The notes under the pieces are model-generated. The model did not search any database and was not told the DNA's origin. It saw only the letters and a program-made list of their open reading frames with translations. Of a stretch of DNA of 64,000 nt, positions 54,407 through 64,000 are shown piece by piece. Positions within the stretch are counted from its first letter, which is position 1. Every line of letters starts with the position of its first letter. Source of the DNA: Clostridium sp. (GTDB lineage Bacteria; Bacillota; Clostridia; Lachnospirales; Lachnospiraceae); contig JAMPFF010000002.1 in NCBI GenBank assembly GCA_023664605.1, positions 186,001 to 250,000 of the forward strand, written 5' to 3'. The position numbers and the translations under genes were made by a program.

Positions 54407-55183
54407 ATGTATGATGTAGCAATTTGTGATGATGAAATGGAAAGCAGGAAAATTTTAAAAAGGGATATTTGTGAAAATGAGAAGTATAAGGGCTTGCTGC
54501 GTATCCACGAATATGATTCGGGAGAAGCGTTGTTAAAAGCTATGCAGGAAATCAGTTTCTCTATTATTTTTATGGATATTCAGATGGATGATATGGACGG
54601 TGAGCAGACGGCGGAAGAAATCAGAAAGCTGGATGACAGCGTGGTCCTTGTCTTTTGTACGGGATATGCGGAACCGACCATACATAGCATTGAGGTACAG
54701 CCCTATCGTTTTATCAAGAAAAATATGACGGATGGGGAGAGGAAAAAATATATAGAAGATTCCCTGGAAAGAATGGCGGCGGTAGCTCAGATACCGGTTA
54801 TCCCGGCTAAAGTGGATAAAACGAGAATTATGCTGCGGCCGGATGATATTATTTATATAGAAAAATATAAGAAATTTTTGAAAGTGCATCTTTCTCCGGC
54901 GGCTCAAAAGCGGTATCAAATATTGACGGAAGAGGAAAGCGATGTCAGGATTTATGAGAGACTGGGCAACCTGTATGCTTCCTTAAAGTCATATGGATTT
55001 GGGTACCCGCATAATAGCTATATTATTAATTTTCAGTATCTTACATCCTGTACGTCTGAAGAACTGCAAATGGAAGGGTTTTTGGATATTGTTTTTAAAA
55101 TTTCCCGCGGTAAGTCGGTTGAGTTTAATGATGCAAAACGGATGTTTTTAGGGTCCAAGTATTCCAACAGGATGAAAAAATGA
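54407..55183 (+). CDS. LytTR-family response regulator (AgrA-like)
   Basis: A 258-residue regulator. A receiver domain (1-125) has Asp8/Asp9 and phosphoacceptor Asp57 (FMDIQM), and a LytTR DNA-binding domain spans about 138-250 (IIYIEKYKKFL, YASLKSYGFGYPHNSYIIN). It answers the kinase encoded next. Its stop overlaps the kinase start (ATGA). An out-of-frame ATG precedes the start by 11 bases in the local motif GGAAAGGTATGG. Confidence 0.92.
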   Translation: MYDVAICDDEMESRKILKRDICENEKYKGLLRIHEYDSGEALLKAMQEISFSIIFMDIQMDDMDGEQTAEEIRKLDDSVVLVFCTGYAEPTIHSIEVQPYRFIKKNMTDGERKKYIEDSLERMAAVAQIPVIPAKVDKTRIMLRPDDIIYIEKYKKFLKVHLSPAAQKRYQILTEEESDVRIYERLGNLYASLKSYGFGYPHNSYIINFQYLTSCTSEELQMEGFLDIVFKISRGKSVEFNDAKRMFLGSKYSNRMKK

Positions 55184-56490
55184 ATTATATGATTTCTTTT
55201 TTGATTAATGTACTTTTATGTATATTAGAAGTATATATGCTGGAGATTTTTTTCGGGGCGATGTTTACAAGGCGCGTCGGCGAAAAAAGATTCCTCCTGT
55301 ATTGCGGCGGCGCCATATGCATTATGATAGCGGTTAATCTTTTAAAAAATCCAATGCTAAATTTTGTGGCGCTTCCGGTTTTATTTTTTGTGTTCGCCAA
55401 GCTGGCGTTTGAGATTGCCGGAACTAAAGCGTTTGTCTATGTAGTCATTTACTATATCATATTTGCCGGCGAAAGAGAAATGGCATTCGAGATGCTGTAT
55501 CGGTTTTTGCTTGCAACGTTTCCCCGTCTGGAAGGGATATTACCGTTTGCCAACGCCATGTTCTTTTATGTAGGGGAATATCTGTTGTCGTTTCTCTTTC
55601 TTTTATATTTAAGAAAGTATCTGCGGGAGATTACCGTCAGGGAAGAGAACAATTTTGAATGGTATCTGCTGGTTATGCCGGTTTCTTCCGTTCTGATTTT
55701 ATTCAGCTTTGTCTATATGGATTTTCCTAACGAGAAAATATTACAGATCATGGTATGCGGCGGCGCATTTCTTCTCTATTTTTCCAATGCGGTGATATTC
55801 ATTATTCTGGCGCATTTCACGCAGGTTATGAACAGGGTGAAAATAGCGGAAATGGCTTTATTAAAGCGGGATATGGAGAAAGAGAATTTTGAAAATACGG
55901 AAAAAACGAACGAAGTGTACAGAAGATACATGCATGATATTCATAAATACTTTTATCAGTTCAGGAGCCTGGCGCTGACAGGGGAAGCCGAAGCCATTGT
56001 AGAGATTATCGACGGATGGGAAACAAATCTCAAAAAGGAAAAAGAAAATAAGAGATATATCGACAGCCCGGTAATGAATTCCCTGTTATCCGGATGTTAC
56101 GAGAGGGCGAAAGAAAAACGGATAGAAATCGATATTTTTGTAGAAGATGCGCTGGACGTAAGTTTTATACAGGATGCGGATAAGATATCCATGTTCGGCA
56201 ATCTGCTGGATAATGCAATAGAGGCCGCTGACGAATGTAAAGAGGGAGAGCGGAAGATCAATATCGAAATGTATATGGGAAATAAATATATGCTTGTGTT
56301 TAAAATAGAGAATACATGGAAGCAAGAGATACAGATGGAGGGCGACAGACTGCTTAGTACGAAGAAAGATTCCAAAAATCATGGGCTGGGGCTTAAGATT
56401 GCCCGGGAACTGGCGCAAAAATATAACGGAAGCCTGGAATGGGAAATGCAGGAGGAATGGTTTGTCACTATGCTGATGATAGCGCGCTGA
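55180..56490 (+). CDS. GHKL sensor histidine kinase (AgrC-like)
   Basis: A 436-residue kinase: six membrane segments (about 1-205) as in AgrC, then a dimerisation helix with HDIHKY (His252 the likely phosphorylation site), and an ATP-binding domain with NLLDNAIEAADE (N box) and HGLGLKIA (G box). It is the likely receptor for the cyclic peptide made from the small gene at 56592. Confidence 0.92.
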   Translation: MNYMISFLINVLLCILEVYMLEIFFGAMFTRRVGEKRFLLYCGGAICIMIAVNLLKNPMLNFVALPVLFFVFAKLAFEIAGTKAFVYVVIYYIIFAGEREMAFEMLYRFLLATFPRLEGILPFANAMFFYVGEYLLSFLFLLYLRKYLREITVREENNFEWYLLVMPVSSVLILFSFVYMDFPNEKILQIMVCGGAFLLYFSNAVIFIILAHFTQVMNRVKIAEMALLKRDMEKENFENTEKTNEVYRRYMHDIHKYFYQFRSLALTGEAEAIVEIIDGWETNLKKEKENKRYIDSPVMNSLLSGCYERAKEKRIEIDIFVEDALDVSFIQDADKISMFGNLLDNAIEAADECKEGERKINIEMYMGNKYMLVFKIENTWKQEIQMEGDRLLSTKKDSKNHGLGLKIARELAQKYNGSLEWEMQEEWFVTMLMIAR

Positions 56491-56496
56491 ATGCGG

Positions 56497-56555
56497 ATTT
56501 TGCCCTTTTTACCGTATAAATTTGGCATATATGAGAATGGCGCGTCATTTTGTGG
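56497..56555 (+). promoter_or_regulatory. ATTTTGC-like boxes upstream of agrD
   Basis: ATTTTGCCC (56497-56505), AATTTGGCA (56519-56527, 22 bases downstream) and ATTTTGTGG (56547-56555) lie before the precursor gene, echoing the pair at 54283. A TAGTAT (56556-56561) could serve as -10 box; no good -35 is present, which suits an activated promoter. Confidence 0.42.
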
Positions 56556-56591
56556 TAGTATGGAAGCAAATCAAACAAAGGAGGAATGGAT

Positions 56592-56756
56592 ATGAATAAC
56601 AATACATCACATGCGCCCCAGACAAAAGGCGGCTTGATGAAACTGATGAATACCTGCGCATTTGCCTTAATGGTCGGTTCTGTTAATAGTGCCTGCGCAT
56701 GGATTCATCATCAGCCCGTAGTACCGGAAGACGCTAAGAAGTTCAGGAAATTCTAA
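56592..56756 (+). CDS. AgrD-like cyclic autoinducer peptide precursor
   Basis: A 54-residue peptide. It has a charged and amphipathic start, GGLMKLMN, a hydrophobic middle, then VNSACAWIHHQPVVPED and a basic tail ending KKFRKF. Cys35 with the next few residues (AWIH or AWIHH) should form the thiolactone or lactone ring, and the Pro/acidic segment after it is the usual AgrD C-terminal recognition part. GGAGG stands 8 bases before the ATG. Its stop overlaps the AgrB start by one base (TAATG), tying translation to its processing enzyme. Confidence 0.85.
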   Translation: MNNNTSHAPQTKGGLMKLMNTCAFALMVGSVNSACAWIHHQPVVPEDAKKFRKF

Positions 56757-57328
56757 TGTTAGCGAGAATATCCGAAAGGATTGTCAACCGGCAGATTATA
56801 AAAGGCATTTTACAAGACGAGGAGCGCGCAGTTTACCAATATGCTTATGAATTGTTGTTAAATCAGGTTATCAATATTTTTCTGGCAGTTCTGATAGCAG
56901 TGGCATTTGGCGCTCCACTGCCTGTTTTGTTGTTTCTGGTAAGTTACATTCCGCTGCGTTCTTTTTGCGGCGGGTATCATGCCGACACGAATTTCGGCTG
57001 TACAGTTGTTTCCGCCATTTTGATATGCTGTGTATGCTGGATATATCAAAACAGCGGGAATGTTTTTTTCTTTGCATATTACCCGTTTATTTATCTCATT
57101 TCAGGGTATCTCGTCATAAGATATGCACCCGTTCCGGATAAAAATAAGCCGCTTGATGAGGCAGAGACCGTGCGGTATCGGCAGAGAAGCCGTGTCATCT
57201 GGCTATTGGAAGCCATGATAGGAGTTATTCTTTATCTGCTTCATAATCGATATGGCATTGTCCTTGCCGTGAGTCATTTGTTCCTATCGGTTATGCTGGC
57301 GGCGGGGAAAGTGAAGAATCGAAGATAA
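56756..57328 (+). CDS. AgrB-like accessory gene regulator protease
   Basis: A 190-residue membrane protease. It has the AgrB block LRSFCGGYHADTNFGC, in which His75 and Cys82 are the expected catalytic pair (His77 and Cys84 in S. aureus). About four to six hydrophobic segments follow. It cuts the AgrD C-terminal part and helps close the ring. Confidence 0.93.
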   Translation: MLARISERIVNRQIIKGILQDEERAVYQYAYELLLNQVINIFLAVLIAVAFGAPLPVLLFLVSYIPLRSFCGGYHADTNFGCTVVSAILICCVCWIYQNSGNVFFFAYYPFIYLISGYLVIRYAPVPDKNKPLDEAETVRYRQRSRVIWLLEAMIGVILYLLHNRYGIVLAVSHLFLSVMLAAGKVKNRR

Positions 57329-57446: not shown

Positions 57447-59222
57447 ATGGGTTTTAGTTTACGAAAAAAGTCAAAAGCATTTTGTATGATTTTTGCCATC
57501 ATTGCTCTTAGTATAACTTCTTCTTTTCATGTGAATGCACAAGCGGTTAATGAAGTTTCAGATATCGTATTCCTGTTAGATTGCAGCCAGTCCATGAGAG
57601 ATATTGATGAAAATTATATGGCGCCTGATTTTATCAAAGAATTGGCTTACGTTCTGCCAAGCCATTATCGCTTGGGACTTGTTGGCTATAATAAAGAAAT
57701 TTGTATCAGCGTATCACTGGAAAGTGAGACAAAAGAGATAGAAGAATCATTAGAAACGGTAGTTTATAAGGATTATGGCAATGCAGGCGCCGGAATGGCA
57801 GAAGCTGTTTCTCTTTTTCAGGATGATGGGAATGAGAAAAGAATCATTCTTTTATCGGATGGAGAAAATGTGATGGATTCAGAGGAAAATACGGACGAAT
57901 CCGCGGCGCTTTTCCGGGAGGCAGTAAGAGAGGCGAAAGAAAAAAATATTGTCATTGATGTTATCAATTTGGGGAAACGGGTAGAAGAAGGAGAGAATGT
58001 GTATCAGGCCGCAGATGATACGGGCGGCGTTATTTATGATATGGAAAATGGAGAATCTCTTAGAGAGTTTATAGAGGAATACTTATTTCAACAGATGGAT
58101 ATTGCGAATCTTCCGGTTGGAAAATTGAGCGGCGGCAGTGGGGAATTATCTGTAAAATTACCTGATTGTATGATGCGGGAAGCTAAAATTATTTTATCAG
58201 GAAAGCAGCAAAATGAAAATATGACATTGAATTGTGAAGCTGACAGAATGCAAGTGTGGAAAGGAAAAAATTATACAGTAATCGAGCTTCTTCACCCTCT
58301 TTCGGAGGAGGTAAAAATACAAATGTCATCCGAAGCGGGCATGGACGTCAACGCATATCTGACGGCGGAATATGATTTTTCCATGACAACGGAAAATACC
58401 TACATCCCGAAAACGCAGACAGCCCGGTTCGGTATAGGGATATGTAATCAGGATGGTAAAAATCTTTTAGATGGACATATGAAAGATGGGAATTTTACAG
58501 TTTATCTGGATGGTGAAGAACAGGAGTACAGCCTATCCGACGGGAAAGCGTATGTCAGTCAGGCGTTGGAACAGGATGCGGTCGTTACGATAGACGTAAG
58601 TTTTGATAAGCTGTACGGAAATTACTATGGCGTAAGCGAGGTAAAAGAAGCGGTTACCATACCGGAAATGATAGTAGAAATAGAGGAAGAAAAGGAAGAG
58701 GCGATTGACTGGTTTTTCTGGGCGGTCATTCTGATTTTTGCGGTTTCTTTGATTATCATATTTTGCATTGCAGGAAAGAAAAGAGGAGGCGCAAATGACA
58801 GGAAAAAGGTCATAGATGAAAGCAGGATGCTTCCGGATGAAAAAGGAATGCGCGGAAATGATTTCTGCGGAAAACTGGTTGTCTATGTTATCCATAACCG
58901 CGAGGGAATCGATTATCCGCCGGAGAGCATTAACTTATTTGCAAGATGTAACAGGGAAATGATAACGCTGGAGTGGATTTTGGATGTCTGTAATCTGCCG
59001 CTGCAATTAAAGGGAGCGGATAAAATCATCATAAGGCCGGGGGATGATAGAAGCATTATCATCAAAAACGCCGGGAAAGCGTCGGCGGTTAAAAACAGGG
59101 AATTTCTGATAAAAGGACATTCCTACCATCTGTATTATCAGGAGAAAGTGACTTTTATTTTTGATGAAGAGGACACGGAAATAGAAGTTCATTATAAAGA
59201 CTTAAAACCAAGCGAAAGATAG
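57447..59222 (+). CDS. von Willebrand factor A domain membrane protein
   Basis: A 591-residue protein. A signal peptide (1-33, ending VNAQA) is followed by an extracytoplasmic vWA domain (about 38-210) with the metal site DCSQS (Asp45, Ser47, Ser49) and LLSDGEN. A further outer region (about 220-415), one membrane segment (about 422-444) and a cytoplasmic beta-rich domain of about 140 residues complete it. The topology puts a ligand-binding domain outside and a sensor or docking domain inside. It starts the locus with sheath-like and tube-like proteins and may anchor or dock that apparatus. Ribosome site AGAGG is 12 bases upstream. Confidence 0.82.
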   Translation: MGFSLRKKSKAFCMIFAIIALSITSSFHVNAQAVNEVSDIVFLLDCSQSMRDIDENYMAPDFIKELAYVLPSHYRLGLVGYNKEICISVSLESETKEIEESLETVVYKDYGNAGAGMAEAVSLFQDDGNEKRIILLSDGENVMDSEENTDESAALFREAVREAKEKNIVIDVINLGKRVEEGENVYQAADDTGGVIYDMENGESLREFIEEYLFQQMDIANLPVGKLSGGSGELSVKLPDCMMREAKIILSGKQQNENMTLNCEADRMQVWKGKNYTVIELLHPLSEEVKIQMSSEAGMDVNAYLTAEYDFSMTTENTYIPKTQTARFGIGICNQDGKNLLDGHMKDGNFTVYLDGEEQEYSLSDGKAYVSQALEQDAVVTIDVSFDKLYGNYYGVSEVKEAVTIPEMIVEIEEEKEEAIDWFFWAVILIFAVSLIIIFCIAGKKRGGANDRKKVIDESRMLPDEKGMRGNDFCGKLVVYVIHNREGIDYPPESINLFARCNREMITLEWILDVCNLPLQLKGADKIIIRPGDDRSIIIKNAGKASAVKNREFLIKGHSYHLYYQEKVTFIFDEEDTEIEVHYKDLKPSER

Positions 59223-59233
59223 GGAGGTAAAGC

Positions 59234-61414
59234 ATGAGTATTATCAAGCAGACAAACAGAACCATGTTGTTTGAAGAAATCAATCCGGAAAAGATGGATT
59301 TACTGACATTGGTAGGCGATGTAAGAGGGATTGACAGTTTGAGCGACGAAAAAATCAAAGAAATGAACGAGGAACTTTTAGTAAGAAGCTTTGACGAGTT
59401 TATTACAAAATTTGACCCGGTGGTATATTCCTTTTTCAATGCCAATAACCAGAAAATTATGTATGTCCTGAAAAAGCCTGAGACAATCCCGGAGGATATG
59501 CTGACGCCGATTCATCTGAATCAGCAGAATGATTTTCTAAAGATGCTGATGTCTTTGGTAGAGGCAAAACGCTCACAGAGCATTATCAATGTCGATTTTC
59601 AATTTGATAAGCTGACGGATATGATTTCGCCCAAAAAGGTTATGGAGGATATTAAACAGAATCGTAAAGAACTGCAGTATACCTATAAAACCTATGCGGA
59701 ACTTGAGGACGGTGACCCGCACAAACTGGATTTGGCGGATAAGCTCAATGTTATGTTTGAGGAAGCAAGCGTCAATTACAATAATGTTTTGGCGATGCTG
59801 CCACTTGCCATCGAGGACATTAAGACCAGGCTGCTTCTCGGCGAGGCGGAGGAAAAGGCGGATAATACGCCGTTAGCGCTCGGCGTTTTAAGCATGGATG
59901 AAAAAGGGGAATTAAAGGTATTGGAAGCGCCCAAGCAGGAGACGGCGGAATTAATGGTGGTGGATGACAATATCAATACCGGACTGATTGCAGCGTTGGA
60001 AGATGATTATGAAGCATTGAACGAACAGAGCAGCGATTATGTAAAGGCGTTGGTGACAAGAACATACTGCCCGTTGGCGTCTACCATGGTAAGCAATATT
60101 GACGTTCGGCAGGAGGTAAGTAATTACAATTCCTATCTGGAATTTTATAAAACGGCGAAAGATGATTTTATCAAGGTGGTAAAGCCGTTAATTGAGAAAA
60201 TATTGGGCGTATGGGCATTTTTCGAGCAGTATCCGGCCAATTTGAAAGGGATGCGGCCATCTTTATTTATCACAAATATCTCTAACGATATGCTGGTAAA
60301 AAGCAGCAATCTGCCGCGGTTGGTAGCATTCTTAAATACGGTAAATGCGAAAAATGACTTTGACAATACCATTTGGTATGGAATTGTGCCGTCCGTATCT
60401 TTAGACCAAAATTCCAATGTGAAGCTGACCAGAGAGCGCTTTAAGGGAAATGAAACGACAGAAAAGACAGGTGTGAACAGCGTGGAGGCGTTGGTGAGAC
60501 TCCTGGATGTGCTAAAAGATTATTCCGTTCAATGCTTTTTCAGTTACGAAACGGGAGATAAGACCACGTTCAACTATATGGCAACAGAGGGAATCTCAAA
60601 GTTTGAAGAACGCTGCAGTTCCCTGACGGGAAAAGCCTACAGCGAGTATGCCATTCCCTGTATTCCGAACTTTACGATTATACCGAAAGAAAAGTCAGGC
60701 GTTATCCTGGACAAGCGTATGTTAGTCAATGAGAATGATATGGCGGAGTTGTCCAAGGAAAAAGAGGATATCATGAAGCTTTGGATAGATGGAGTTTATG
60801 TGGGAGCTTCTTACATAGCGGCAGGCCTTGTGGCGGCGTATCAATGTCCGGAGTATTTAAAAGATAAATTCAAGAAAAACGTGGATGAAGAACTTCCGGG
60901 CGTCAGATTTGATATTGAAGCAGGCGACCACCCGCTCAGGGTTCATACGGTAATGGCAAAAGAGATTACCGGCTTTACCAATTCTATTAAGAATGAGATT
61001 AACAGACGCAGCTTTGGCTTTGTATTTTCTTCGGAAAACGCGATGCTCGGCTTGGAAAACGTCCATAACATCATGGTTTATAAAGCCAGAAACCTGATGA
61101 GCGACGGTAAAACCTATGAGCCAATATACAAGACGCAGGTCACAAGCTACATCATACGAGTTCTGCGCCATGCAACCGGCGATTACAAGCAGGAAAATAT
61201 TGTACAGTTTTTTTCTAACAATCCGGCAAGCCAGAAGAGCCTCTGGCTGGAGAAGAAAGGATGCGTCAATGCCATACTGGGCGCAGGTGATGATGTAGAA
61301 TATGAGATTGACGAAGCGAATGGATACTGCACGTTAAATATTACATTTAACGGTAATGTCAAGAATCTGGAAGTTGAAATTAACCGTTTCAATTCTAATA
61401 ACAGAGCCATTTAA
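59234..61414 (+). CDS. Sheath-like protein of a contractile (type VI/tailocin-like) system, TssC-like
   Basis: A 726-residue soluble protein with no signal or membrane segment, behind a very strong AGGGAGG site, as for a highly made structural protein. The last 100 residues (TSYIIRVLRHATGDY, IVQFFSNNP, then two beta strands) recall the C-terminal domain of TssC/tail sheath proteins, where a CRFAHY-type helix is followed by a beta pair. INRRSFGFVFSSENAML before it resembles the sheath core. Immediately downstream are two Hcp-like tube proteins, the normal sheath-tube order. The N-terminal half (about 1-250) is not recognised and may be a fused TssB-like or added domain. The assignment needs structure comparison. 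Confidence 0.55.
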   Translation: MSIIKQTNRTMLFEEINPEKMDLLTLVGDVRGIDSLSDEKIKEMNEELLVRSFDEFITKFDPVVYSFFNANNQKIMYVLKKPETIPEDMLTPIHLNQQNDFLKMLMSLVEAKRSQSIINVDFQFDKLTDMISPKKVMEDIKQNRKELQYTYKTYAELEDGDPHKLDLADKLNVMFEEASVNYNNVLAMLPLAIEDIKTRLLLGEAEEKADNTPLALGVLSMDEKGELKVLEAPKQETAELMVVDDNINTGLIAALEDDYEALNEQSSDYVKALVTRTYCPLASTMVSNIDVRQEVSNYNSYLEFYKTAKDDFIKVVKPLIEKILGVWAFFEQYPANLKGMRPSLFITNISNDMLVKSSNLPRLVAFLNTVNAKNDFDNTIWYGIVPSVSLDQNSNVKLTRERFKGNETTEKTGVNSVEALVRLLDVLKDYSVQCFFSYETGDKTTFNYMATEGISKFEERCSSLTGKAYSEYAIPCIPNFTIIPKEKSGVILDKRMLVNENDMAELSKEKEDIMKLWIDGVYVGASYIAAGLVAAYQCPEYLKDKFKKNVDEELPGVRFDIEAGDHPLRVHTVMAKEITGFTNSIKNEINRRSFGFVFSSENAMLGLENVHNIMVYKARNLMSDGKTYEPIYKTQVTSYIIRVLRHATGDYKQENIVQFFSNNPASQKSLWLEKKGCVNAILGAGDDVEYEIDEANGYCTLNITFNGNVKNLEVEINRFNSNNRAI

Positions 61415-61434
61415 AAAGAAAAGGAGGAAGAAAA

Positions 61435-61866
61435 ATGGGATTCAGATTACAAGTATCAGGAGGGGCAGACCAGATTGCTCTGGACGAAAAGAGCATTAAA
61501 AACGTTGTCTTCGGTTCGGAATCGGCAGTTGATTCCAATGCAAGAGCGACAGATTTCGGCGTTTCCATGAAAATATGGGGGAAGATGCTCTATAAGCTGG
61601 GAGGCGACGGAAACGACGGTACGCTTGGGCTTTCCAAGTGGTCGGTAGTGCCGTCAGAAAAAGCGGACTGCTACCGGAATGCGGTAGTAGAGGTTATTTC
61701 CGCAGGACAGGTGGTTCGTAAATATGAAGTGCCGAATGCGTTTGTCATGGAATATACGGAAGAAATGGATGACGAAACGGGTGTCGGAACTTTTTATCTG
61801 CATGTGAAACAGAAAAAAGACGAGAATGACAAAGTAAAAATTGAGGGCGGATACGCCGGAGAGTAG
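61435..61866 (+). CDS. Hcp/tail-tube-like protein, copy 1
   Basis: A 143-residue beta-rich protein. The pattern DSNARATDFGVSM, WSVVPSEKADCYR, RKYEVPNAFVMEY and GVGTFYLHVKQ matches the strand order of Bacteroidetes-type Hcp/TssD (where the equivalents are GRPSS, W, and ENAYCVQYKE). A strong AAGGAGG site suggests high expression. It could form the inner tube ring within the 726-residue sheath. In databases such proteins may be labelled membrane-associated protease, a name not supported by any motif here. Confidence 0.6.
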   Translation: MGFRLQVSGGADQIALDEKSIKNVVFGSESAVDSNARATDFGVSMKIWGKMLYKLGGDGNDGTLGLSKWSVVPSEKADCYRNAVVEVISAGQVVRKYEVPNAFVMEYTEEMDDETGVGTFYLHVKQKKDENDKVKIEGGYAGE

Positions 61867-61880
61867 AAAGGAGAATAGAA

Positions 61881-62306
61881 ATGGCATTTGTTGTAAAAGT
61901 GGAAGGCGCTGACGCCTTTGAAATATCAAAAGAATGTGTAAAAAGCGTAAAAATGACGACCGATATCCCGCAGGATTCCAATGCAAGGACAAAGGATGTG
62001 GGAGCGTCGATGGTAATTACGGGAAAGATACTGACGGCGGTGGGCGGCGACCCGTTTGACAGTACCAGAAAGATGGCGCTGTGGTCGGTAGTTCCTGCAG
62101 AGAGAGCGGACTGCTACAGAAAAGTAACGGTGGAGTACATAGCCGCGGGCATTATGGAAAGAAAATATTGTTTTCCGAATGCTTTTGTAGTTGATTATAG
62201 AGAAGATTACGGCGATGAGGCAGGAATCGGCACATTCACGCTGATTATCAAGCAAAAAAAGGATAAATTCAATGCAATATCGGTTGAAGGCGGCTACTCT
62301 GCATAA
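61881..62306 (+). CDS. Hcp/tail-tube-like protein, copy 2 (paralog)
   Basis: A 141-residue protein clearly homologous along its full length to the previous gene (shared DSNAR, GKxL, GGD, WSVVP, ADCYR, PNAFV, GTF and KQKKD blocks). It has its own AAAGGAG site. Two tube proteins suggest a mixed tube, a tube plus an initiator or terminator ring, or an effector-carrying version. A hairpin follows the gene. Confidence 0.6.
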
Positions 62307-62334
62307 TAACCAGCGTAGGAAGCTGTTTAAGAAA

Positions 62335-62367
62335 AAGAGCGTATCAACTAGCGTTGTATACGCTCTT
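62335..62367 (+). other. Hairpin after the tube genes
   Basis: AAGAGCGTATCAAC (62335-62348) and GTTGTATACGCTCTT (62353-62367) pair with a single bulge and a four-base loop. Only a short T-run is next to it. It could be a partial terminator or an mRNA stabiliser that keeps sheath and tube mRNA high relative to the later genes. Confidence 0.6.
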
Positions 62368-62386
62368 TCAGAAAAGGGAAGAGAGC

Positions 62387-62800
62387 ATGGATTATTATAA
62401 GGTACTGGGAGTGTCGGAGCAGGCGGAAGATGAGCAGATTAAGCAGGCTTATCGGAAACTTGCCAAGAAATTTCATCCGGATTTAAATCCGAACAATCCG
62501 GAAGCGGAAGAAAAGTTTAAAAATATCGTAGAGGCATATGAGACATTAGGAGATGCCGACAAGAGAAAAGCATATGACTTAAAGAGAAAGAAAACCGGGG
62601 CGGACAGAAGCAGGAAAAGCACGGATTCTGCAAAGACGCCGGATAGAAATATGGCTGATTTTACGAAAGATATGGAGAAATATTTCGGGTTTTCGTTTAC
62701 CGGAGAACAGAACGGGAAACAGAAAACAGGCGCAGATGCTCACAAGAAAAATCCGTTGGATGTGACGGAGATGTTTGAGGCATTTATGAAGATAAAGTAA
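62387..62800 (+). CDS. J-domain (DnaJ-like) protein
   Basis: A 137-residue protein: an N-terminal J domain (1-68) with YYKVLGV, the HPD loop (KFHPDLNP) and [11 protein letters not shown], then a basic linker and a short helix-rich tail with no zinc or C-terminal DnaJ domain. It would bring Hsp70 (DnaK) to a particular client, here likely the sheath or tube assembly. ATG at 62387 follows AAGGGA; an upstream start is not needed. Confidence 0.9.
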
Positions 62801-62816
62801 AAACAGAGGAGTACCA

Positions 62817-63359
62817 ATGAACCAAAAAACCACACTAGACACAGCAATTATTATATCCTGCATTACAGGCGTTATTCTATCATGCGTTTATCTTGATAAT
62901 CCTGTGCAGAAGTATATTAGTATCGGTATCCTTGCTACGGTGGGTATCCAGTTCGTTCTTCTGGCAATTATGGATGCGGCGGGCATAAAACAGTCGAAGC
63001 ATCTTCCGGTCAGGAGAAAAGAAATCTCGGAAATTCTGCTGCTGGGGGAGGAAAACAATATTACCGCCGTATGGGATATTTACGGGAAGAGTTCCATTGT
63101 ATTTGGGAAAGAAGCAAAAGAGAACCAGATAGATATCAACCTGAAAAATACGGACTATGCAGGCACGGTAGACGGGGAACATGCCGTTATGAATTACAGC
63201 AACGGGAGCTGGTACATAGAAGATTTGGAAAGTGAAAACGGAACCAGAATACAACGGGGCGGAGAGGGCGAAAAATACCGCGTGTCTTCCAGAGAACCAT
63301 GCAAAGTAGAGAAGAACGATATTATTTATCTTGGGCTTGCCCCGATTAAGATACGATAG
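62817..63359 (+). CDS. Membrane-anchored FHA domain protein
   Basis: A 180-residue protein with two N-terminal membrane segments (about 8-26 and 35-55) and a cytoplasmic FHA domain (about 95-180): IVFGKE, DGEHAVM, YIEDLESENGT. The SxxH block is replaced by DGEH, but the SENGT block is kept. FHA domains bind phospho-threonine peptides. In type VI systems, FHA proteins link a Thr kinase to assembly. GAGGAG precedes the start. Confidence 0.85.
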   Translation: MNQKTTLDTAIIISCITGVILSCVYLDNPVQKYISIGILATVGIQFVLLAIMDAAGIKQSKHLPVRRKEISEILLLGEENNITAVWDIYGKSSIVFGKEAKENQIDINLKNTDYAGTVDGEHAVMNYSNGSWYIEDLESENGTRIQRGGEGEKYRVSSREPCKVEKNDIIYLGLAPIKIR

Positions 63360-63380
63360 AAGGGAATAGGGTTAATAGAC

Positions 63381-63875
63381 ATGAGCAATTTAATCAGATG
63401 CCAGAACGGACATATGTTTTCAAGCAGGAGATATGGAACGATATGTCCGTACTGTAATATTGAAACAGCGACGAAAGAGAAAAAAGAGACGGGGCAGACA
63501 GAGATTGAAGTGGAAGAAGCCTTGTTTTTGCAGGAAGAACATCCGGTATGCGGCTGGATTGTCTGCATTTCGGGAGCCAGAAAGGGCAAAGACTATAAGA
63601 TTATGGCAGGCAAGAACTTTGTCGGCAGGGCGGACGATATGGATATCCAGATTTTGGGAGACAATAAGATTTCCAGAAGAAACCACTGCGTCATTGTCTA
63701 TGATGAAAAACAGAGTAAGACTGTCATTTTACCGGGAGACAGTAACGGCATCGTATATTTGAATGAAGAAGCCGTCTATGTGCCGACGCAGCTTATGGAA
63801 TTTGATGTTATAGAGATGGGTGAGAGCAAATTTCTTTTTATTCCGTTTTGCGGTGAGCATTTTAAGTGGGAATAG
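63381..63875 (+). CDS. Zinc-ribbon plus FHA domain protein
   Basis: A 164-residue cytoplasmic protein. A zinc-ribbon-like start has Cys7, His11, Cys22 and Cys25 (CQNGH, CPYC). An FHA domain covers about 58-160 with FVGRADDMD (conserved GR), SRRNH (SxxH) and SNGIVYLN, matching a phospho-threonine-binding fold better than the previous protein. It likely works with a Ser/Thr kinase not in the window. Confidence 0.88.
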   Translation: MSNLIRCQNGHMFSSRRYGTICPYCNIETATKEKKETGQTEIEVEEALFLQEEHPVCGWIVCISGARKGKDYKIMAGKNFVGRADDMDIQILGDNKISRRNHCVIVYDEKQSKTVILPGDSNGIVYLNEEAVYVPTQLMEFDVIEMGESKFLFIPFCGEHFKWE

Positions 63876-63886
63876 GAGGAAACGGC

Positions 63887-64000
63887 ATGAGGTTGGAAGA
63901 GATTGCGTTAATGATGCTCTATCTGCTGATTGTGATATTGATTGCGGTGCGTTTTTTTAAAAAGGAAAAAGGAAGGGTCATACGCCGGTTTCGGGTGGGA
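63887..64000 (+). CDS. Membrane protein start, partial (cut by window edge)
   Basis: Thirty-eight codons are visible after AGGAGG and an ATG at 63887: a short acidic start, one hydrophobic segment (about residues 6-22), then a basic cytoplasmic stretch (FFKKEKGR). The frame is open at the edge. It belongs to the same operon; its nature cannot be read from this part. A membrane-linked phosphatase or kinase would fit the FHA neighbours but this is a guess. Confidence 0.6.
   Translation, partial: MRLEEIALMMLYLLIVILIAVRFFKKEKGRVIRRFRVG

Follow-up and report, generated by a model that had tools for sequence, protein, structure and literature searches.

Gene content and organization of the locus

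We analysed a stretch of 64,000 nucleotides from a Clostridium sp. genome of the Lachnospiraceae (assembly GCA_023664605.1, contig JAMPFF010000002.1, positions 186,001 to 250,000), hereafter called the window, in which a candidate contractile injection system (CIS) begins. The assembly is a 3.59 Mb draft in 78 contigs with 4.1% contamination, and a contig of 352 kb encloses the locus. On this contig, here C22, the window corresponds to C22:186001-250000 (C22 coordinate = window coordinate + 186000), and the sequence was examined up to 50 kb beyond the window end.

Seven genes, from one for a vWA membrane protein to the second of two FHA genes, follow each other in the same orientation with intergenic gaps of 11-80 bp, just as a preliminary description of this DNA had placed them in one operon. 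The operon continues past the window: its first gene, for the vWA protein, starts at C22:243447, and as far as C22:270046 neighbouring genes are never more than 81 bp apart, with open reading frames across the genes read. It starts with genes for the vWA protein, a 726-residue sheath-like protein, two Hcp-like proteins, a J-domain protein, an FHA protein with transmembrane (TM)-like segments, a soluble FHA protein and two PP2C-like phosphatases. These are followed by o412, o236, an 872-residue Hsp70/actin-like ATPase, a DUF4280 protein with a phage-tail-lysozyme domain, a leucine-rich repeat (LRR) protein and o279, and then by two VgrG-like genes, between which lie small genes, those for the DcrB-like o201 and the immunity-like o197 among them. 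A second DUF4280 gene and a lipoprotein-like gene complete the operon (Table 1).

Distribution and conservation

The locus is real and conserved. The sheath-like protein was found in 10 of 150 genomes of the same family, the own genome included, and among species genomes a scan turned up 404 pattern stretches, 377 of them with a relative. The loci examined here are the best 80 of these 377, from Lachnospiraceae, Selenomonadaceae, Pelosinus, Oscillospiraceae and others, and all locus counts depend on the flank length available. Both Hcp-like genes were present in all 73 loci with at least 2 kb 3' of the sheath gene, and the gene order recurs in Lachnospiraceae, Negativicutes and others, which shows that the arrangement is beyond chance.

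Orthologs of o412, o236 and the ATPase were found in 26, 18 and 19 of 56 loci, numbers limited by the length of sequence examined, and co-occurrence was therefore assessed in whole genomes. Among 398 Bacillota genomes, again including the own, the sheath profile matched 13, hereafter the carriers; the o236 profile matched the same 13, and the ATPase profile these plus one weak partial match (24 bits). In one carrier (G488) o236 lies at C15:354670, far from the sheath gene at C15:162862, so that linkage alone is insufficient to explain the co-occurrence. Identities between genera were 25-37% for o412 and 30-50% for the ATPase, and the sheath was 57-72% identical to nearer family relatives and 31% to a distant one (G068).

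Trees of the sheath and the ATPase (29 and 26 sequences, with 26 shared rows) agree on two main clades, the deep placement being unsure with long branches and a program warning of long-branch joins for the ATPase. A distant clade of three genomes (G068, G397 and G529) keeps the sheath, one Hcp, VgrG, a protein at the o412 position, o236, the ATPase and o279. Judging from gene content, we take these seven genes as a putative minimal machine and the regulators as an addition of the main clade.

An Omp85 match was obtained in 5 of the 13 carriers and in none of the other 8, which include the own draft genome, so that one core appears to serve both monoderm and diderm cells. The host itself thus looks monoderm, in agreement with the single membrane ascribed to it earlier.

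A sheath-like protein of one chain

An AlphaFold2 (AF2) model of the 726-residue protein (pLDDT 58, pTM 0.61) was compared with known structures. In VIA-align, rows 1-28 were all contractile tails, CISs or type VI secretion systems (T6SSs), among them the Photorhabdus virulence cassette (PVC), the antifeeding prophage (AFP) and pyocin, and in Foldseek VipA/VipB came out on top (E 0.016), with no match reaching 0.001. Residues ~2 to 706 of the model align with the sheaths of phages and extracellular CISs (eCISs), and residues from ~289-317 to 707 with TssC/VipB chains. The model therefore suggests a sheath-like, one-chain fold as in eCISs and contractile phage tails. The sheath likeness was originally noted for the C-terminus; it holds, with the difference that the similarity to known structures extends over the whole chain.

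At the sequence level, no credible family was found for this protein in Pfam, NCBIfam or PHROGs, or with Pfam on the members of its alignment, and its profile gave only chance-level rows against the PDB. The VipB family (PF05943) matched 0 of 13 carriers with a positive E. coli control, TssB's own family not being part of the search, and Phage_sheath_1 (PF04984) had no sequence match in the own genome. Only one sheath gene was found in the locus, rather than the two-protein TssB and TssC arrangement of T6SS subtypes i-iii. No tblastn match to the sheath was obtained in plasmid records.

Tube, spike and effector genes

The two Hcp-like proteins are 48% identical to each other. The first alone had no Pfam match, and its family profile (A14) matched PDB Hcp1. 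Pfam TssD (PF17642) matched 18 of 37 members of the Hcp-like family at E<=0.1 (best 0.0011), with the window's own match below the cut-off (Table 1). This weak but consistent sequence evidence points to Hcp-like tube proteins, as first proposed, and identifies TssD as the closest Hcp family. A third, longer Hcp-like protein (241 residues), perhaps an extended Hcp, adjoins the ATPase gene in an Omp85 carrier (L144:1434-2156).

Genes for a spike and a PAAR-like tip, which the preliminary description suggested seeking downstream, are present 3' in the operon. Both VgrG-like proteins matched Phage_GPD above cut-off (5e-10 and 1e-9), and the spike matched PDB VgrG (1.6e-16), NCBIfam vgr_GE below cut-off and, by profile, also Pvc8 and Afp8. 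DUF4280, a PAAR-like family, was matched by two operon proteins at 1.3e-5 (just under the cut-off) and 0.006 (below it), and by relatives above cut-off (1.8e-7 and 1.9e-6). By homology, the operon thus appears to hold both the VgrG spike and the PAAR-like tip of T6SSs i-iii.

Both DUF4280 genes overlap their 3' neighbour, the lysozyme fusion by 4 bp with the gene for the LRR protein (which has an N-terminal hydrophobic segment) and the other by 8 bp with the lipoprotein-like gene. From these overlaps and the export signals we infer two effector-immunity pairs; exported protectors would suit wall-acting effectors. In G068 and G397, genes for DUF4280-AHH nucleases lie beside the core genes, followed in G068 by an Imm11 gene (3e-8) and in G397 by a gene matching the o197 profile. 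Against the PDB, the o201 profile scored best with DcrB (E 0.085), followed by a DUF1795 protein (0.11); neither match is significant, and both are suggestive only. T6SS effector chaperones have this fold.

Elsewhere, one relative (L027:4683-12008) encodes a VgrG-like protein of 2442 residues fused to RHS repeats, as in T6SS RHS effectors. VgrG matched seven plasmid records, two of them from Paenibacillus. On the Paenibacillus polymyxa plasmid p-YT9A (L114), genes for VgrG-like, DUF4280, VgrG-like, GH-E nuclease and ankyrin proteins are clustered in an apparent mobile effector module.

Baseplate candidates

There is moderate support for o412 as a baseplate wedge similar to TssF/gp6, which gives a partial answer to whether baseplate genes follow downstream, and o236 and o279 are probably its TssG/TssK-like partners. 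Searches of Pfam, NCBIfam and PHROGs, and of Pfam with alignment members, returned no credible family for o412 or o279; nor was a credible match found for o236, scanned once per library without its alignment. PDB sequence profiles gave chance-level rows only for all three, and no baseplate protein was among the 50 Foldseek matches from the PDB listed for the o412 model, a result that excludes no family for it. TssF was matched by sequence in 0 of 13 carriers. The gp25 family was found in 2 of 12 carriers, on contigs other than that of the sheath, and TssE/gp25 had no match in the own genome.

An Hsp70/actin-like ATPase

T6SS loci often have clpV at the position held here by the gene for the 872-residue protein. 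Its columns that are invariant in 21 sequences include D234/G236/T240, DCGGGT(435-440)/D442 and GQS(665-667), which we take to be phosphate and adenosine motifs and which would place it in the Hsp70/actin ATPase superfamily. Its best PDB matches were Hsp70 (E 0.022), and it matched the MamK actin-like model below cut-off (0.0017). The search for ClpV or another AAA+ protein downstream thus led to a different ATPase: no AAA+ family was matched among the operon proteins scanned, the rest of the genome not being searched for ClpV. We tentatively suggest a role in the recycling of spent sheath, somewhat short of an even chance; otherwise it would act in assembly or effector loading.

The J-domain protein has an HPD motif, read by eye, and its gene is present in 48 of 56 loci with at least 9 kb downstream. 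It was undetected in the Lachnoanaerobaculum loci, in one locus of family f33 and in the distant clade. The chaperone gene of the preliminary description is thus confirmed here and is not universal among related loci, and an obligate pair of J-protein and ATPase was rejected in favour of an optional one. Further ATPases of this type were seen in the distant clade: a 994-residue protein with a weak Hsp70 match below cut-off (E 0.0046) 5' of a DUF4280 gene in G397 (L131:9596-12577), and additional actin/Hsp70-like starts, recognised by eye, near the ATPase in G529 (L134-L135). These may matter for effector handling.

Membrane and signalling genes

By hydropathy, the vWA protein consists of an N-terminal hydrophobic segment, the vWA domain, one TM segment (423-441) and a C-terminal tail, and it is a putative contact sensor or anchor. 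Its gene is present in 50 of 66 loci with at least 2.5 kb 5' of the sheath gene. Each of the two PP2C-like proteins has a TM-like segment, and the second has a long, charged tail that looks coiled-coil-like by eye.

The H1-T6SS of Pseudomonas aeruginosa is controlled by threonine phosphorylation through PpkA, PppA and Fha1, so that vWA, FHA and PP2C proteins are not foreign to T6SSs and the earlier view of the vWA protein as an unusual part was not borne out. The locus shares these three protein types with the H1-T6SS and differs from it in that no kinase was matched among the proteins scanned in the operon. Ser/Thr kinase genes were seen 5' of the sheath gene in two f33 genomes (L139:1310-2296 and L142:874-1902), with no vWA gene in the stretch examined.

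A complete agr-type module at 54407-57328 of the window is followed, after 118 bp, by the vWA gene. Its AgrD-like peptide has phmmer homologues in six related loci with the common pattern C....HQP..P. Among 52 loci whose upstream sequence reaches at least 5 kb, only 17 have AgrB 5' on the same strand, which weakens agr control as a general trait.

Relationship to known contractile systems

The locus shares with T6SSs i-iii a Hcp-like tube, a VgrG-like spike, PAAR-like effectors with likely immunity genes, a TssF-like wedge candidate and, in a relative, the VgrG-RHS fusion. In the distant clade the order sheath-Hcp-VgrG-o412-o236-ATPase resembles the tssBCDEFGH order of T6SSs. It differs from T6SSs i-iii in its one-chain sheath, in lacking sequence matches to IcmF/TssM, VipB and TssF, in an operon that encodes an Hsp70/actin-like ATPase and gave no match to AAA+ families, in the two Hcp genes of each main-clade locus, and in hosts that include monoderm bacteria. 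For the TssJLM membrane complex, the IcmF-related PF06761 matched 0 of 12 carriers with a positive E. coli control, TssJ and TssL not being searched. By the sheath and the membrane complex, the system is not a member of T6SS subtypes i-iii, in line with the distinct system suggested at the outset. Standard models thus miss it, those for VipB, TssF and IcmF finding none of the 12-13 carriers tested; a published screen, in the parts concerned, was for classical CIS genes (PMC12210884).

A haloarchaeal T6SS is reported in PMC11566945 to be bound to the cytoplasmic membrane, and no complex was observed beyond this membrane, so that one membrane can suffice. Its similarities to the machine proposed here are its action as a CIS across one membrane, its toxin-immunity pairs and a candidate for the membrane anchor; it differs in having classical Cis2 and Cis11-13, whereas here the sheath, wedge, o236 and o279 escape standard models.

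Pairs of DUF4280 (PAAR_H2) and Phage_GPD genes were noticed in PMC5349215, which raised a phage-like translocation system in Gram-positives as a possibility. Passages of PMC8651086 report that Phage_GPD homologues beside PAAR_H2 in Firmicutes are not accompanied by conserved genes of eCISs or T6SSs, and speculate on an unknown phage-like system. The tip and spike families and the phylum are the same as here; the difference from the pairs in those passages, which have no apparatus genes beside them, is that our operon contains a candidate apparatus. The locus is thus a candidate machine for these DUF4280 genes of Gram-positives. Firmicutes are named among T6SS holders in PMC3482391, with no such locus in the passages concerned. 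No published description of the machine was found in titles and abstracts, a search that covered few subscription papers and not bioRxiv, so that an earlier report is possible.

Proposed mechanism and alternative explanations

The sheath-like model, the Hcp-like profiles and the spike and PAAR-like genes support the original reading of a type VI-like contractile injection locus. It is highly likely that the locus encodes a CIS, and this probably works as a T6SS does. We consider it likely, on the whole, that it forms a cell-anchored machine of a separate Bacillota lineage, as follows. The single sheath protein would polymerise round a tube of the two Hcp-like paralogues, tipped by VgrG-like spikes and DUF4280 effectors and standing on a baseplate with o412 as one part and o236 and o279 as probable others. 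On contact, contraction of the sheath would push the tube out across the producer's membrane and wall and into a neighbouring cell. It would thereby deliver effectors that are nucleases or act on peptidoglycan, with the gene beside each effector protecting the producer. The vWA protein, the membrane FHA protein and the two PP2C phosphatases may form a membrane-bound phospho-switch for docking or firing, joined here by the upstream agr quorum-sensing module, and the handling of sheath or spike would fall to the Hsp70/actin-like ATPase, together with the J-protein in loci that have it, in place of the AAA+ ClpV.

Features shared with eCISs and contractile phage tails, namely the one-chain sheath (as in PVC, AFP and pyocin), the spike profile matching Pvc8 and Afp8, and two tube paralogues reminiscent of the eCIS tube set, would also fit an extracellular CIS or tailocin, in which cytoplasmic particles are freed by lysis and act at a distance. 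We regard this as unlikely, since Pfam recognised no tape measure, tail fibre, AAA+ ATPase (Cis15) or phage lysis cassette in 30 proteins from the operon and downstream of it (the LRR protein was unscanned, and diverged forms could escape), the only lysis-type match being the phage-tail-lysozyme domain fused to DUF4280. Instead, the operon encodes proteins of the vWA, FHA and PP2C types that carry TM-like segments, and toxin or enzyme domains are fused to VgrG and DUF4280. Furthermore, a tblastn search of 50,697 phage records gave no relative of the sheath, nor was there one among the 15 stretches from a pattern-based scan of viral contigs.

The effectors vary and have putative immunity genes beside them, some with export signals, which speaks for rivals, not the producer itself, as targets, and the system also occurs in Omp85 carriers. 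Both observations make it very unlikely that the machine fires under stress inside its producer and leads to death or development, as in the cytoplasmic CIS of Streptomyces, even if the host is Gram-positive, that CIS is the published Gram-positive precedent, and the phosphatase and FHA genes could read stress. About as unlikely is a decayed or repurposed module that no longer contracts, for example a scaffold loading DUF4280/VgrG polymorphic toxins for another exit route. It would account for the missing TssE/gp25, for two core proteins without family assignment and for a stop inside the sheath match of one relative, but the frames here are open, the sheath, ATPase and o412 are kept between genera, and the sheath, ATPase and o236 are retained together even when apart on the chromosome. 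The draft is fragmented and partly contaminated, yet contaminating Gram-negative DNA or an assembly artefact is in practice refuted by the position within a long contig, by Lachnospiraceae-labelled records in which sheaths of up to 95% identity lie in a similar gene context, and by three single-contig Bacillota genomes that carry the system.

For the cell-anchored machine, we judge the chances to be even that it represents a class of Bacillota's own, apart from T6SSs i-iv and eCISs, in which a sheath of one chain surrounds an Hcp tube (built from two Hcps in the main clade), ClpV is replaced by an ATPase of the Hsp70/actin type that many loci combine with a J-protein, the machine works through one membrane in Clostridia and two in Negativicutes, and agr quorum sensing switches it on in some gut Lachnospiraceae. 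T6SSs are regarded as a Gram-negative weapon. If the machine works, contact-dependent injection would join the known means of warfare among gut Lachnospiraceae and rumen Selenomonads, and a contractile syringe would be seen to cross a thick wall from inside; its ATPase would handle sheath or spike in a new way. The gene list offers targets for deletion and imaging in cultured anaerobes, loci of this kind being present in Pelosinus fermentans JBW45, Roseburia inulinivorans DSM 16841 and a Lacrimispora.

Neighbouring genes

Table 1. Genes of the candidate injection locus and of the upstream agr-type module, in window coordinates.
Feature	Position	Strand	Basis or remark
Response regulator with LytTR DNA-binding domain (agr-type)	54407..55183	+	Pfam Response_reg 1.2e-14, LytTR 4.5e-6
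GHKL-type sensor histidine kinase (AgrC-like)	55180..56490	+	Pfam HATPase_c_5 1.9e-24
AgrD-like signal-peptide precursor, 56 residues	56586..56756	+	Small reading frame adjoining AgrB; phmmer homologues; no Pfam match
AgrB peptide-processing protein	56756..57328	+	Pfam AgrB 9.5e-41
vWA membrane protein, 591 residues	57447..59222	+	Pfam VWA 3e-15; hydropathy
Single-chain sheath-like protein, 726 residues	59234..61414	+	AF2 model; VIA-align; Foldseek
Hcp-like tube protein 1, 143 residues	61435..61866	+	Family profile vs PDB Hcp1 (6bdc) E 0.0056
Hcp-like tube protein 2, 141 residues	61881..62306	+	Pfam TssD 0.064, below cut-off
J-domain co-chaperone	62387..62800	+	Pfam DnaJ 1.4e-27; frame opens at 62354, ATG at 62387 likelier by inspection
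FHA protein 1	62817..63359	+	Pfam FHA 1.1e-8; two N-terminal hydrophobic (TM-like) segments
FHA protein 2	63381..63875	+	Pfam FHA 6.6e-8; without TM-like segment; N-terminal CPYC motif by eye
PP2C phosphatase a	63866..64717 (window part 63866..64000)	+	
PP2C b	64714-66789		Beyond window
TssF-like o412	66837-68075		Beyond window
o236	68072-68764		Beyond window
Hsp70/actin-like ATPase	68761-71379		Beyond window
DUF4280-lysozyme protein	71392-72990		Beyond window
LRR protein	72987-74048		Beyond window; repeats by eye
o279	74060-74899		Beyond window
VgrG-like protein, first	74912-76516		Beyond window
DcrB-like o201	77259-77864		Beyond window
VgrG-like protein, second	79132-80532		Beyond window
Second DUF4280 protein	80539-82107		Beyond window
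Lipoprotein-like	82100-84046		Beyond window

After the last DUF4280 gene, a run of genes at C22:268100-275816 encodes proteins with N-terminal hydrophobic segments, mostly without a family match. Two of these genes have similar segments by eye, and the run may contain stacked immunity genes. About 6 kb 3' of the final operon gene, at C22:276079-276717 (90079-90717 in window coordinates, outside the window), lies a gene for a 212-residue protein that matches the Cyt-type Bac_thur_toxin family (PF01338, E 2.8e-74).

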